Source: Maricaulis maris
GTDB taxonomy: Bacteria > Pseudomonadota > Alphaproteobacteria > Caulobacterales > Maricaulaceae
DNA: 64,000 nt
Assembly (NCBI RefSeq): GCF_003634045.1
Contig: NZ_RBIM01000007.1
Coordinates: 62,001 to 126,000 of the forward strand
Direction of reading: 5' to 3'
Below the pieces are notes generated by a model. That model did no database searches. It saw nothing but the letters and a program-made list of their open reading frames with translations, and was not told the DNA's origin. Shown piece after piece: positions 27,969-64,000 of the stretch. Within the stretch, counting starts at the first letter, position 1. Every line of letters starts with the position of its first letter. Both the position numbers and the translations under genes were made by a program.

Positions 27969-27991
27969 GTCTCAAAGGCTTGCATGAAACA

Positions 27992-28029: not shown

Positions 28030-28128
28030 GCAACAAAAATAGGAATATTATCCCCACCTGGGTGTAGCCATCTTAGCATCACGTCGGTCGCGGCCATCGG
28101 GGCGCCGCGTCAGAACGGGAGTGCACGG

Positions 28129-28515
28129 ATGAGCCGTATCATGTGCAAATTGGAAGAGGATGTCGCCCGGGCCCGCCTTGCCCAGAGTGCCGTCGCCTAC
28201 GCCTTCGGGATCTCGCAACGCGAGCTGGAAGCACCGACACGACGATCACGCGAGACCGCGCTGGCCCGCCAGGCCGCCATGTATCTCGCCCATGTTGCCT
28301 TTGAATTGCCGATCAGCCGGGTGGCGCTGGCTTTCGGGCGTGACCGCTCGACGGCGGCCCATGCTTGCCATCGCATCGAGGACCGGCGCGATGACCGGGC
28401 CTTTGACGACTATATGGACGCGCTGGAAGCGGCCTTGCGCACGGCACCGCGCTTGAGCGCCCTGCAACGCCTGGCCGGTCTGGAACGCTTCGAGCGCCCG
28501 GAGCGACTGACATGA
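28129..28515 (+). CDS. DnaA domain IV-like helix-turn-helix protein, GafY-like
   Basis: A 128-residue protein whose centre (residues about 58-95) matches DNA-binding domain IV of DnaA. ISRVALAFGRDRSTAAHACHRI, quoted in part as FGRDRSTAAHACHRI, parallels the DnaA signature GRDHTTVLHA.RKI. No AAA+ domain is present, so it is not a replication initiator. In Rhodobacter the GTA activator GafA combines a DnaA-like and a sigma-like region, and in Caulobacter the paired proteins GafY and GafZ do the same job. This gene and the next, overlapping by four bases, have that organisation. ATG 28129 was chosen; upstream in-frame residues are not protein-like. Confidence 0.75.
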   Translation: MSRIMCKLEEDVARARLAQSAVAYAFGISQRELEAPTRRSRETALARQAAMYLAHVAFELPISRVALAFGRDRSTAAHACHRIEDRRDDRAFDDYMDALEAALRTAPRLSALQRLAGLERFERPERLT

Positions 28516-29225
28516 GCGCGCCGCGCTGGATGCGGGCCCTGGCCCGTCCGGGTGCCCGGATGCTGCCGCCGGGAGAGGTCGAGGCGCGGGCGGTGGTGTT
28601 GCCGAAAGGCGACCGGCGACGTCGGCCGACGACATACCTGTCCGCCAGCCGTTTCGAAGAGGCGATGCGCTGTGGCTGGCTGGCGCGTCGCGAGAATGGT
28701 CTGGGCCTGTCGGCGGACGGCCAGGCGGCGCTGAAAGCCGGCACGCGCGGTGAGGACCCGGACCCGGCGGCACGTCATCGCGAGATGGAGGACCGGTCGC
28801 TGATCACGCCGGACGGTTCACTCAGGACCGCCCGCGCCAATCGCCGTGAAGGCCCGCTCGGCCCTTGGCTCGATGGTCTCGAACCGCACCAGCGCCAGGC
28901 CGGCGAACGTTTCATCAGCGATTATCACCAATCCACCCTGATGAGCCCGGTCACCCGCAACTGGTCTCCCACCGCCCAGCGCCGCAGCGAGGGCCGCCGC
29001 AAGGGTCCGGAAGACGCGGCCGTCTCGGCGCTTGCCGCCAAGGACAGGGTCATGGACGCTCTCGACACCCTCGGCCCCACCTTTGCCCGCGTCATCGAGG
29101 CCGCGCTCGTCCATGAAGACAGTGCCGCCGCGCTGGAGCGCCGTTTTGGCTGGGCGGCGCGGTCGGGCCGCACAGTGCTTGGCCTGGCGCTGACGCGGCT
29201 GGCAGAGATCTATCGGCTGGTTTGA
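28512..29225 (+). CDS. DUF6456 protein, GafZ-like (sigma-region-like C-terminus)
   Basis: A 237-residue basic protein. The N-terminal half has a winged-helix-like segment (YLSASRFEEAMRCGWLARRENG). The C-terminal half (about 150-237) matches DUF6456: it has RQAGERFISDYHQSTL, then ALDTLGPTFARVIEAALVHED and RSGRTVLGLALTRLAEIY. The last part looks like sigma-factor region 4 or a related HTH. Coupled to the DnaA-like gene by ATGA. The pair is the best candidate in the window for the transcription and anti-termination regulator of the GTA operon about 30 kb away. The GafZ equivalence is inference from architecture. Confidence 0.7.
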   Translation: MSAPRWMRALARPGARMLPPGEVEARAVVLPKGDRRRRPTTYLSASRFEEAMRCGWLARRENGLGLSADGQAALKAGTRGEDPDPAARHREMEDRSLITPDGSLRTARANRREGPLGPWLDGLEPHQRQAGERFISDYHQSTLMSPVTRNWSPTAQRRSEGRRKGPEDAAVSALAAKDRVMDALDTLGPTFARVIEAALVHEDSAAALERRFGWAARSGRTVLGLALTRLAEIYRLV

Positions 29226-29256: not shown

Positions 29257-29354
29257 ATTTTTCCCGGGCGTAGACCCGGGACCCACGAAACGATCCGGCA
29301 AGCGATAAGTTTCCCGTAGGTCCCGGATCGCGCCAGGGCGCGTCCCGGAAAAAT
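29257..29354. repeat. family B palindromic repeat, copy 1
   Basis: Arms ATTTTTCCCGGGCG.AGACCCGGGACC and GTAGGTCCCGGATCGCG...CCGGAAAAAT face each other across about 40 bases. Copy 2 is at 58391-58485 with most bases of both arms the same. Confidence 0.8.
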
Positions 29355-29707: not shown

Positions 29708-30127
29708 CTAAAGCGCTTCCGCTTCACCCCGTATCCGCCCGATCATCGAGGCCAGGCCATTCGAGCGTTGCGGGGAGAGGTGTTCGGCGAGGCCGATTTT
29801 GGCCAGCACGTCGCGGGCATCGACGGACAGGATTTCTTCGCCTGTGCGACCGGAATAGAGGCGGACCATCAGGGCGGCCAAGCCGCGGACGATATGGGCG
29901 TCGCTGTCGGCCCGGAAGGTGAGCGTGTTGCCGGCGGTCTCGGTGACCAGCCAGACCTGGCTGACACAACCTTTGACGCGATTGCCCTCGGTGCGTTCGT
30001 CCCCGGGCATGTCCGGCAACGCCTTGCCCATGTCGATGAGATAGCGGTAGCGCTGCTCCCAGTCGTCCAGAAGGTCGAACTCGTCCACGAGGTCGTCGAT
30101 TTCAGTTTGGATATCTTGTGCCGTCAT
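29708..30127 (-). CDS. sufE: SufE-like sulfur acceptor for Fe-S cluster assembly
   Basis: A 139-residue cytoplasmic protein of SufE length. The sulfur-accepting cysteine is Cys54 in NRVKGCVSQVWL, the diagnostic motif. The C-terminal helix has the typical SPQRSNGLASMIGRIR ending. SufE receives persulfide from the cysteine desulfurase SufS. No other suf genes are near, which is common in Alphaproteobacteria. It runs on the minus strand with a DUF5330-like gene 98 bases upstream and is convergent with the GafZ-like gene across repeats. Confidence 0.95.
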   Translation of the reverse strand: MTAQDIQTEIDDLVDEFDLLDDWEQRYRYLIDMGKALPDMPGDERTEGNRVKGCVSQVWLVTETAGNTLTFRADSDAHIVRGLAALMVRLYSGRTGEEILSVDARDVLAKIGLAEHLSPQRSNGLASMIGRIRGEAEAL

Positions 30128-58390: not shown

Positions 58391-58485
58391 TTTTCCCGGG
58401 CGAAGACCCGGGACCGACGGGCCTTGTTGACAGGCGATGAGTCTCCCGTAGGTCCCGGATAGCGCTGCCGCGCTTCCGGGAAAAA
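58391..58485. repeat. family B palindromic repeat, copy 2
   Basis: TTTTCCCGGGCGAAGACCCGGGACC (arm) faces GTAGGTCCCGGATAGCG...CCGGGAAAAA. It matches copy 1 at 29257 in both arms and in the phrase GTAGGTCCCGGAT. Confidence 0.8.
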
Positions 58486-58554: not shown

Positions 58555-58635
58555 GCCGTATCCGGTTCTTGAGGTCAAGGGCGGCGCAGCCGCCGCTTCG
58601 CGGGTTCCCCCTTGAGCTCAAGAACCGGATACGGC
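58555..58635. repeat. family C palindromic repeat, copy 2
   Basis: Arms GCCGTATCCGGTTCTTGA and TCAAGAACCGGATACGGC are perfectly complementary over 18 bases. They enclose GGTCAAGGGCGGCGCAGCC and CCTTGAGC. The outer flanks CTTGTCAGCC and GGCAAGTGATTTATG match those of the other family C loci. Confidence 0.9.
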
Positions 58636-58702
58636 TGTCTCCCGGCAAGTGATTTATGGCGGGGCATGCGCGCGGCGCCAGCCCTTCCACATCCCCCAAT
58701 CC

Positions 58703-58801
58703 CCGTCATCCCCCGGCTTGTCCGGGGGACCTCGTCCACCCGCTCGACGGGGAAGCGAAGGTCCCCCGGATCGCGGCCTTGCCGCGACCGGGGGATGACG
58801 G
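58703..58801. repeat. family A palindromic repeat, CCCCCGG sub-type, copy 4
   Basis: CCGTCATCCCCCGG and CCGGGGGATGACGG form the outer arms. GGCTTGTCCGGGGGACC matches the copy at 62404 base for base over this stretch. Confidence 0.85.
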
Positions 58802-58922
58802 TGGTGGTGGGGTATCGAAACAGCGCGGAAGAAGCGGCCCGCGCTCCACCGCCTCCCCCCGATAGCTTGCATTTGCACCCACGCCTTTACCGCGGCGCAA
58901 CCCTCGCCCCACTCCGGTGTTT

Positions 58923-58941: not shown

Positions 58942-59065
58942 TCACAAGAGCGATCAAGCAGGGCGCGCCGCCAACCCGCCTTCACGACAAATGCCAGTGA
59001 CATTCCCCCCGACGGGGCCACAAGGCGCGGATAAACCCGCCACTATCCCCGTATCTGTCCCGAAG

Positions 59066-59100
59066 AACCCGTGACCATCCAGTTGGTTGCGGGTTTTTTC
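59066..59100 (+). terminator. intrinsic terminator in the GTA leader
   Basis: AACCCG (59066-59071) pairs with CGGGTT (59090-59095), with ACCA/TGGT pairing inside, and TTTT follows. It points towards the GTA genes and ends 45 bases before the first GTA start codon. No gene lies within 700 bases upstream on this strand. Position and direction suggest an attenuator that must be overcome for GTA expression. Confidence 0.8.
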
Positions 59101-59144
59101 GTGGTGGATATCCGACCGGTGACGGCGCCGGCCTATTGTTCGGC

Positions 59145-59669
59145 ATGCCCGGAATTCCCCAGACAAAGCCGAAAGACGACGTGGCCTGGTACCCCTATTT
59201 TTTGCGTTCGCAGAGTGGGGCGACCGGGCCGGAGCTGGCCGAAATGTGCGGCCTGTCCATCCCGACCGTAAACCGGCATTTGCGCCGGCTGCGCGCCTAT
59301 GACGCGGAGACCCTAGCCGGCCTCAAAGAGCAGGCCATCGAGCGCCGCAAGGATGAAGCCGTGATCGAATTCCTGATCGGCGACCCCGGCAAGGCGACGC
59401 GCATTGCCAATGGCCTGGCGGCGCTCTGCAAGCTTGATCGCGCCACGCCCGACACCGCCGCAACACCCGATACACCAGACGAAGAGGACGCGATCGATGA
59501 CGCCGCCCGACACGCTCGCGACGATGCTTTCCTTCGTCGATACATTCTGGACCATGACGATGCGGGAGCGGGTGAGGGCGTGGAAGACGGCGAAGCCGCC
59601 GGCCCGCGACGCGATCCATACCGACTTCCGCTACCGCGCGACGGGCCCACAGCTGCCGCCGCCGGGTGA
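59145..59669 (+). CDS. GTA g1-like protein, probable small terminase
   Basis: A 174-residue protein with an N-terminal helix-turn-helix (GPELAEMCGLSIPTVNRHL) and a helical, acidic middle. Its position first in the GTA cluster matches RcGTA g1, a small terminase-like DNA-recognition subunit. ATG 59145 is used; a TTG at 59136 is in frame. The last 173 bases overlap the large terminase gene. The C-terminal 60 residues, in the overlap, look unconstrained, so this end may have been extended by frame drift. Confidence in the role is moderate. Confidence 0.65.
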   Translation: MPGIPQTKPKDDVAWYPYFLRSQSGATGPELAEMCGLSIPTVNRHLRRLRAYDAETLAGLKEQAIERRKDEAVIEFLIGDPGKATRIANGLAALCKLDRATPDTAATPDTPDEEDAIDDAARHARDDAFLRRYILDHDDAGAGEGVEDGEAAGPRRDPYRLPLPRDGPTAAAAG

Positions 59670-62243: not shown

Positions 62244-62322
62244 GCCGCATCCGGTTTTCCAGGTCAAGGGCGCGAAGCGCCGCTACGCGGTTTTACCCTT
62301 GAGCTGGAAAACCGGATGCGGC
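62244..62322. repeat. family C palindromic repeat, copy 3, inside the GTA operon
   Basis: Arms GCCGCATCCGGTTTTCCAGG and TGGAAAACCGGATGCGGC enclose GTCAAGGGCGCGAAGCGCC. Outer flanks CATTCATCGCTTGCCGAG and GACAAGTGATCCATGGATG match the empty locus at 29396. Confidence 0.9.
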
Positions 62323-62403
62323 CTGCTGGCTGACAAGTGATCCATGGATGATTGCGCGCCGACGGCGCTGAATTTCCAACTCTATTCCAACTCCCATCTA
62401 CCC

Positions 62404-62504
62404 ACCGTCATCCCCCGGCTTGTCCGGGGGACCTCAACCATCCCGCCAGCCGGTTAGCCGGGGTCCCCCGGACCGGCGCTGTGCGCCGGCCGTGGGATGA
62501 CGGT
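62404..62504. repeat. family A palindromic repeat, copy 5, inside the GTA operon
   Basis: Arms ACCGTCATCCC and GGGATGACGGT enclose CCGGCTTGTCCGGGGGACC and CGGGGTCCCCCGGACCGG. It is the closest relative of the copy at 58703. Confidence 0.85.
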
Positions 62505-62549
62505 GAGCGAGTGATTTCAATCTTCCCCCCCCAAACCCGGAGTCCTCCC

Positions 62550-63034: not shown

Positions 63035-64000
63035 GTGAGCAAGGAAACCAAGATGACAGCCGCGACCGGTGACAGCCGCGCGGTGATGGGCGAGCTGCTG
63101 GCTGCCTTCGAACAGTTCAAACAGGCCAATGACCAGCGCCTCGCCGAGATCGAGACGCGGGCCGCTGCCGACGTGTTGCTGGAAGACAAGGTCGCCCGCA
63201 TCGACAAGGCCCTCGACAGCCAGAAATCCGCCCTCGACCGGCTGGTCCATGAGGCCGCCCGTCCGGGCCTCGCCACCGGTGCGGACAGGTCCGCGGCCTC
63301 TCTCGGCTTTGCCGCCTATATGCGCAGTGGCCAGATCGGGGAGGGCAAGTCCGCGACCGCCGGTACGCCCGGCGAGGGCGGTCATGTCGTGCCGGTCGAG
63401 ACCGAGGCGCATATCGACCGCCTGCTGGCCGAAGCCTCGCCGATCCGCTCGATCGCCACCGTGCGCCAGAGCACCATGGGCGTGTTCCGCAAACCGGTCT
63501 CGCGCGGCGGCGCAGCGACCGGTTGGGTGTCGGAGACGGCCGCCCGCCCCGAGACCGATGCGCCGAGCCTCGAACTGATCGAATTTCCCGCTGCCGAGCT
63601 CTACGCCATGCCGGCCGCCACCCAGCAATTGCTCGATGACGCCATGGTCGATGTCGAGGACTGGCTGGCGCAAGAGGTCCGCGATGTCTTCGCCGCCCAG
63701 GAAAGCGCGGCCTTTGTCGCCGGCGACGGCATCAACAAGCCGCGCGGTCTGCTGGACTACACGGCGGTTGCCGAGGGCACACAGGCCTGGGGGGAGCTGG
63801 GCTATGTCGCGACCGGCACGGCGGGCGGCTTCGATGCGGCAGATCCGGCCGATGCGCTGATCGACCTCATCTATGCGCCCAAGACCGCCTATCGCGCCAA
63901 GGGCCGTTTCGTGATGAACCGTCAGACGGTCTCTGCCGTGCGCCGCTTCAAAGATGCCGACGGCAATTATCTCTGGCAGCCGGCGCTGGGCGAGGGCGCA
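63035..64000 (+). CDS. GTA g5-like major capsid protein (HK97 fold), 3' end outside the window
   Basis: The first 322 codons are present and open to the last base. Residues about 18-72 form a coiled coil (the scaffold-like delta domain cut by the protease). Then follow SLGFAAYMRSG, TAGTPGEGGHVVPVETEAHI, WVSETAARPETDAPSLE, ATQQLLDDAMVDVEDWLAQ and GDGINKPRGLLDY, all typical of GTA/HK97 capsids. The start is GTG 63035 with AGGAG six bases upstream; an overlapping ATG at 63033 meets a stop at once. It is the most strongly expressed gene expected in the operon. Confidence 0.96.
   Translation, partial: MSKETKMTAATGDSRAVMGELLAAFEQFKQANDQRLAEIETRAAADVLLEDKVARIDKALDSQKSALDRLVHEAARPGLATGADRSAASLGFAAYMRSGQIGEGKSATAGTPGEGGHVVPVETEAHIDRLLAEASPIRSIATVRQSTMGVFRKPVSRGGAATGWVSETAARPETDAPSLELIEFPAAELYAMPAATQQLLDDAMVDVEDWLAQEVRDVFAAQESAAFVAGDGINKPRGLLDYTAVAEGTQAWGELGYVATGTAGGFDAADPADALIDLIYAPKTAYRAKGRFVMNRQTVSAVRRFKDADGNYLWQPALGEGA

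Follow-up and report, generated by a model that had tools for sequence, protein, structure and literature searches.

Gene transfer agents (GTAs) are domesticated viruses that ship DNA between cells, and their switch circuit is known from Caulobacter crescentus and Rhodobacter capsulatus, with GafY and GafZ acting as a two-protein switch. In a 64,000-nucleotide stretch of the Maricaulis maris genome (hereafter, the window), two coupled genes at 28129–29225 resemble this switch, and a GTA cluster lies further downstream. Does the pair control this GTA, and if so, through which DNA elements?

According to the available text of PMC9632790, the R. capsulatus protein GafA has a split form in C. crescentus, where GafY and GafZ are separate proteins, and 759 GafZ homologues, 494 with GafY adjacent, were found among 1,331 genomes searched. 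Because GafZ homologues with an adjacent GafY are described there, the split pair itself is of an already known kind. The same text states that the GafYZ motif could not be predicted, and the accessible part of PMC11150451 calls prediction of the GafY motif difficult and maps one site. In the available portions of the literature on GafY, GafA, gafYZ and DUF6456 (including PMC13236601, PMC10688885, PMC6363796, PMC9638019 and PMC9765227), we found neither a GafY motif nor gafYZ at the head of a GTA cluster. The new part of this study is a candidate GafY box with its spacing, proposed from sequence comparison.

The gene pair encodes orthologues of GafY and GafZ

The first gene (28129–28515, forward strand) encodes a stand-alone DnaA domain-IV protein of 128 aa, and the second (28512–29225, forward strand) encodes a DUF6456 protein of 237 aa. 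The stop codon of the former and the start codon of the latter overlap by four bases (ATGA). In the 128-aa protein, Bac_DnaA_C is the sole Pfam match (E 1.4e-15, residues 19–83), so no ATPase domain was found in it; DUF6456 is likewise the sole Pfam match of the 237-aa protein (E 1.2e-28). A whole-genome search returned a single DUF6456 gene and three DnaA_C genes, namely a 483-aa frame taken as dnaA, the gene at 28129–28515 and a 163-aa protein on another contig (G000:C6:28483-28674). Caulobacter GafY gave no match to this third locus, which is surrounded by genes that we take to be phage-like.

To place the pair, GafY proteins of five Caulobacter genomes were compared with the three DnaA_C loci of this genome. 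All five had the 128-aa protein as their best match (E about 1e-25) and reached only 1e-8 to 1e-7 against DnaA. Similarly, GafZ of all five Caulobacter genomes matches the 237-aa protein. DUF6456 was present in all 19 Maricaulis genomes searched and in 26 of the 41 genomes of that search overall, and GafY adjoins GafZ in 24 of 26 loci examined.

Structure models agree with these assignments to differing degrees. The AlphaFold model of GafY (mean pLDDT 87) matches DnaA DNA-binding domains among solved structures, the best being 3pvp (E 1.1e-4), with 1j1v at an rmsd of 1.7 and a target TM of 0.83. For the GafZ model (mean pLDDT 78), the top two and most of the high-probability Foldseek matches are sigma factors or their -35-binding domains, with non-significant E-values throughout (3hug, E 0.49; 3vfz, E 0.81; target TM 0.76–0.83). 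The original prediction had read the pair, from the letters alone, as a split GafY/GafZ-like system made of a DnaA-domain-IV-like protein without an ATPase and a coupled DUF6456 protein, and had proposed structure prediction and profile searches as checks. Both were run: the GafY fold is that of DnaA domain IV, and profile and reciprocal searches place both proteins inside the GafY and GafZ families, neither outside. Collectively, the pair is well supported by sequence as orthologous to Caulobacter GafY and GafZ.

The arrangement resembles C. crescentus GafY/GafZ (CCNA_01111/01112), which work with RogA and IHF and are likewise encoded by two coupled genes for a DnaA-IV protein and a DUF6456 protein. 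R. capsulatus GafA, a GTA regulator, has corresponding DnaA-like N-terminal and DUF6456/sigma-like C-terminal parts (available text of PMC9638019 and PMC6363796). However, GafA is one fused protein with an omega-binding middle, whereas Maricaulis has two overlapping frames and no single polypeptide carrying both domains. The split gafA of Hyphomicrobiales, as described in the accessible part of PMC9638019, also has a small DnaA-like gene before the DUF6456 gene and sufE adjacent; in the window, sufE lies beside gafYZ at 29708–30127 on the reverse strand (SufE Pfam E 1.5e-47). The upstream neighbor differs, being a Proton_antipo_M gene (NADH dehydrogenase/antiporter type) in Maricaulis and mucR in Hyphomicrobiales.

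A candidate RogA-type operator overlaps the gafY promoter

Ahead of gafY, a candidate core promoter (TATCCC, 19 bp, TAGCAT; 28049–28079, forward strand) with a presumed start site is conserved in the Maricaulis alignment. Its -35 is overlapped by a candidate RogA operator, TAGGAATATTATCC (28040–28053), which recurs in each of the 18 gafY promoters aligned from Maricaulis, with one or two spacer changes in four of them. The same eighteen promoters have TAGGAATAttATCCcC in common with few changes. In Caulobacter, an operator of this type also lies over the gafYZ promoter, where TAGGAATATCTTCC occurs in five of five genomes. The available text of PMC9632790 reports that RogA bound the gafYZ promoter region, which contains two GGAA-N4-TTCC inverted repeats, and that RogA was found at gafYZ and one other promoter only. 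In our survey of 80 named relatives, 56 carry the pattern TAGGA-N6-TCC no more than about 135 bases ahead of gafY, compared with a mean of 0.1 and a maximum of 2 in shuffled sequences.

Elsewhere, this genome encodes a RogA orthologue that is S24-like and 208 aa long (G000:C1:333642-334265). It has matches of at least 41 percent identity in 19 of 20 genomes tested, including all five Caulobacter genomes; the sole genome without a match (G034) is also without DUF6456. By sequence, then, the coupled gafYZ genes are predicted to stand under a RogA-type operator. Additionally, a weak and doubtful IHF-site candidate, TCTCAAAGGCTTG (27970–27982, forward strand; 8 of 9 consensus positions), is the top-scoring IHF place upstream of gafY in the six closest genomes, at a position unlike that in Caulobacter. 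The TATCCCC in the gafY promoter was also considered as a GafY site; as the -35 on which the RogA operator lies, it has a simpler explanation, and we do not claim it.

The GTA cluster and its linkage to gafYZ

The GTA cluster starts at 59145 on the same strand, 30.6 kb downstream of gafYZ. It opens with a g1-like gene (59145–59669, forward strand; HTH_24, E 2e-7) that has a conserved start and is assigned to g1 by its position. The GTA head genes (terminase large subunit, portal, protease and capsid) were identified with PHROGs and Pfam from 59497 to the end of the window at 64000, on the forward strand, and the cluster, which includes a GTA_TIM tail protein, extends beyond the window to about G000:C7:136106. 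From the g1-like gene onwards, the order is terminase, portal, protease, capsid, connector, tail completion, tail tube, tape-measure-like and GTA_TIM. Within the subset of RcGTA genes sought, head and tail genes thus form one run with a GTA_TIM tail protein, as in an RcGTA-type GTA, and the frames are open from g1 through a 1254-aa tail protein. A DUF4760 gene of obscure function lies between the tail-completion and tail-tube genes (L154:4528-5049).

Several repeats were seen around these genes. Related GC-rich repeat blocks lie before g1 (58555–58803), between the portal and protease genes (62244–62505) and after the capsid gene (L154:2270-2559), and are loosely like the three terGTA repeats of Caulobacter; since a similar block also stands beside gafZ, no terGTA is claimed. 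A near-identical hairpin sequence, TTTCCCGGGCGWAGACCCGGGACC, occurs after gafZ (29260–29283) and before the GTA (58392–58415).

To determine whether this proximity is particular to one strain, we surveyed 109 family genomes. In 83 of them terL was matched at an E-value no worse than 1e-60, and DUF6456 was present in 89, 88 of these over the curated cut-off; G270, below the cut-off, was left out of the linkage count. Both gafZ and terL were present in 79 genomes, on different contigs in 36, which are uninformative on linkage, and on one contig in 43. Among the latter, the two genes lie within 50 kb of each other in 36 genomes, all 36 with the same strand and gafZ upstream, and are 118 kb or more apart in the other seven. 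Within Maricaulis, seven of 11 genomes have gafYZ and the GTA on one contig, and the distance in these seven is 19 to 31 kb. The two published C. crescentus loci are far apart by gene number (CCNA_01111 and CCNA_02880), unlike the 30.6 kb on one strand here; three of five Caulobacter genomes carry both on a single contig, at distances of 0.15, 1.75 and 1.83 Mb.

At the other extreme, gafY, gafZ and terL stand together in 13 of the 36 genomes within 50 kb, which belong to two genera (nine of g18 and four of g22), 12 of which keep TAGGA-N6-TCC before gafY. In these adjoining loci (L242-L254), about 190–350 bases separate gafZ from the first possible terL start, and the gap often holds a short frame with a -10-like sequence just before the frame start. 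The GTA expected about 30 kb downstream was found where the original prediction put it, and co-occurrence in one window, which was offered as support and is weak alone, reflects a conserved linkage of gafYZ to the GTA.

A candidate GafY box at a recurring spacing from the GTA promoter

For C. crescentus, the accessible text of PMC11150451 gives the PgtaT promoter as -35 AATCAT and -10 TATCTTT with an IHF site upstream. It further reports that GafY binding needs -123 to -113, that loss of this interval ended GafY-dependent activation and that mutation of ACTATG abolished GafY binding. With our anchoring, ACTATG falls at -123 in the two of five Caulobacter genomes that contain it, and a start codon falls at the published +251, so our positions agree with the numbering of that paper. 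All five genomes have GGGGAT at -118 to -113, inside the mapped YBE interval.

In the window, the sequence aligned with mapped PgtaT is TATCCG, 19 bp, TATTGT (59109–59139, forward strand), with the start codon directly after. A candidate GafY box, the inverted repeat GCGGATA-N10-TATCCCC (59027–59050), starts 82 bp before this -35 and is proposed from its position and conservation. With distances counted from the first base of the -35, all five Caulobacter promoters and 13 of 17 Maricaulis promoters have GGAT at -80; of the other four Maricaulis promoters, one has it at -79, one shows GGAC, one TGAT and one nothing. The second half of the box, ATCC, stands at -64 in 13 of the 17 and at -63 in one. 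The 17 are those of 19 Maricaulis genomes that gave terL loci (G007 and G012 partial). G006 and G014 are included in these counts, with GGAC and ATCC in G006 and GGAT at -80 and ATCC at -64 in G014, and lie outside the offset averages over 15 promoters; G006 is also outside the promoter alignment.

Averaged over the 15 Maricaulis promoters, scores peak at -82 for GGGGATW, at -65 for WATCCCC and at -32 for the forward IHF consensus. The five Caulobacter promoters peak at the same three offsets, with a weak second half (4.4 versus 4.2 for the next best). PgtaT shares with Maricaulis the GGAT at -80, whereas the Maricaulis box is a near-symmetric inverted repeat and its IHF match is weaker than in Caulobacter, where the best IHF match is at -32. 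The corresponding candidate in the window, ATCCAGTTGGTTG (59077–59089, forward strand), is partial, with 7 of 9 consensus positions. In Maricaulis, a reverse IHF consensus at -88 that overlaps the box has a higher mean (5.67) than the forward one at -32 (5.13), which makes the IHF site of this genome uncertain. The individual reverse match at 59021–59033 fits 8 of 9 positions, as it does in two close relatives.

Two further features were noted near the core promoter. An inverted repeat between the -35 and -10, CCGGTGACGGCGCCGG (59116–59131), lies in the place of the Caulobacter ZBE and is doubtful as a GafZ-binding site; its sequence is not conserved among close relatives. A strong intrinsic-terminator-like hairpin (59062–59098, forward strand; RNA fold -21.7 kcal/mol, z -6.4) lies after the box and ahead of the core promoter, where it overlaps the IHF-like site at -32, and occurs in six of the 17 Maricaulis promoters, those of the closest relatives. 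We rejected it as an antitermination target downstream of the promoter: the PgtaT alignment sets the promoter at 59109–59139, and the hairpin is therefore upstream and outside that transcript. Judged by sequence and spacing, a GafY-binding element is predicted far upstream of a weak sigma-70 GTA promoter.

Held-out tests of the promoter layout

Fourteen Maricaulis promoters entered the scoring models, G009, which is without the box, being outside the training. The model trained on Maricaulis only placed five of five Caulobacter promoters above all window positions but one, which we take to be the GTA promoter of the window. The reciprocal Caulobacter-only model placed two of the 14 Maricaulis promoters above all background. 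A joint model scored 60.3 at 59109, a promoter that was in its training, versus 9.7 at the next-best place in the window.

In other genomes of the family, a composite promoter score of at least 12 was reached in 22 of 43 held-out genomes with GafZ and at one of 59 opposite-strand loci. It was also reached in one of the 13 genomes with adjoining genes (12.3, ahead of gafY) and in one of three genomes in which GafZ was not found (G416, 84 percent complete, 22.2). Scores stayed below 12 in all six g21, all three g23 and six of eight g7 genomes, all with GafZ. At 13 other loci, two of five with GafZ scored above 20, and all eight without GafZ scored below 2. A strict regular expression for the core promoter had given one poor candidate in 13 loci of other families, and the scoring model was used instead.

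In what we regard as the fairest test, the -35, -10 and start codon served as the sole anchors, with the 13 genomes with adjoining genes and the three without GafZ excluded; of 48 held-out genomes, 42 passed the core threshold, set at 10. Among 122 offsets compared, the two box halves did best at -82 and -65 and the forward IHF consensus at -32, in each case exceeding the average offset by 4.4 to 4.6 standard deviations. With thresholds of 12 and 13 (35 and 31 genomes), these offsets were unchanged at 3.9 to 4.7 standard deviations. For the reverse IHF consensus, the peak lay at -9 or -88 (3.1 to 3.4). GGA, which makes up the first three letters of the box motif, stands exactly at -80 in only nine of the 42 core-anchored genomes, many of whose anchors are doubtful. 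As related genomes are not independent, all held-out figures are descriptions rather than probabilities.

When 13 Maricaulis genomes were scanned for the palindrome, allowing at most one mismatch, 57 sites came up, the GTA promoters among them, versus 21 for the reversed pattern. A GafY regulon was not recovered: among the matches listed for neighbor comparison (36 stretches and 20 search loci, some with identical sites and some from other families), neighboring genes were not common between genomes, except for one pair of 37 percent identity between G005 and G007. Four places in G004 (L200, L201, L202 and L203) have paralogous genes at sites that resemble GGGATA-N10-TATCCC with one mismatch.

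Discussion

Based on these observations, we consider it highly probable that the pair at 28129–29225 is the Maricaulis GafYZ activator of the RcGTA-type GTA from 59145, working through RogA, IHF and sigma-70 steps. Repression, binding, looping and antitermination in Maricaulis are modeled on Caulobacter experiments. By this analogy, RogA on the operator over the gafY -35 would normally silence gafYZ. Once RogA is relieved, GafY would bind the inverted GGGGATW/WATCCCC element that starts 82 bp upstream of the GTA -35, IHF would bend the DNA between this element and the promoter, and GafY would bring sigma-70 RNA polymerase to the g1 promoter, whose -35 is poor. GafZ would then join the polymerase and let it run through the long GTA cluster. 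That the pair acts on the GTA from 59145 in this strain is what we infer.

Several observations weigh against the activator reading. The IHF match at -32 is partial (7/9) and is outscored by the reverse match at -88, and the ZBE-like repeat is not conserved. The palindrome scan of 13 Maricaulis genomes recovered no regulon, the Caulobacter-only model placed only 2/14 Maricaulis promoters above background, and the composite score reached 12 in only 22/43 genomes, plus 2/5 more loci. With core-only anchors, many of them doubtful, GGA was exactly at -80 in only 9/42 genomes. Moreover, G416, 84 percent complete and with GafZ not found, has a composite promoter, and the two loci are 118 kb or more apart in 7/43 one-contig genomes.

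Alternatively, the small protein could be a DnaA-related replication regulator whose link to the GTA is incidental, as its DnaA domain IV fold and the earlier name hdaB of the Caulobacter gene, cited in the available text of PMC9632790, might suggest. This is very hard to reconcile with the position of GafY beside GafZ in 24/26 loci, the RogA-type operator before gafY and the linkage, up to adjacency, of gafYZ to terL; the same text also ascribes the replication phenotype to GTA induction. It is only slightly easier to suppose that the pair is a genuine GafYZ that no longer acts on the GTA because the latter has decayed or answers to a different activator. In favor of this, g1 is preceded by a long leader rich in repeats and by a terminator-like hairpin, and some GTA genes were not identified; however, the GTA frames stay open from g1 up to and including the 1254-aa tail protein, and close relatives have conserved both the promoter elements and the distances between them, so we regard this alternative as quite improbable.

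A different question, compatible with a GafYZ activator, is whether the -82 element is bound by another protein, such as IHF, DnaA or RogA, and this has a real but minor chance of being correct. The element resembles a DnaA box (consensus TTATCCACA), the reverse IHF match overlaps it at -88 in Maricaulis, and genome-wide GafY sites could not be derived. In contrast, its Caulobacter counterpart is contained in the -123 to -113 interval, without which GafY-dependent activation was lost, and shares one base with ACTATG, whose mutation abolished GafY binding; the best Caulobacter IHF match is at -32, and RogA was found at gafYZ and one other promoter only. On balance, we lean slightly towards the proposal that, in Maricaulis, its relatives and Caulobacter alike, GafY recognizes a DnaA-box-like inverted repeat, GGGGATW-N10-WATCCCC, positioned 80–82 bp upstream of the GTA -35, and that IHF acts at -32. 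This layout may reflect a fixed DNA loop, preserved while most of the sequence around it has changed. The activator genes range from the head of the GTA cluster in two genera to unlinked positions.

Where gafYZ adjoins the GTA, gene order alone points to a functional link. The comparison with Maricaulis supplies a candidate recognition sequence and spacing for GafY. Collectively, Maricaulis shares the operator, the upstream element and the core promoter, which suggests joint inheritance of the parts of the GTA switch circuit known from C. crescentus and R. capsulatus.
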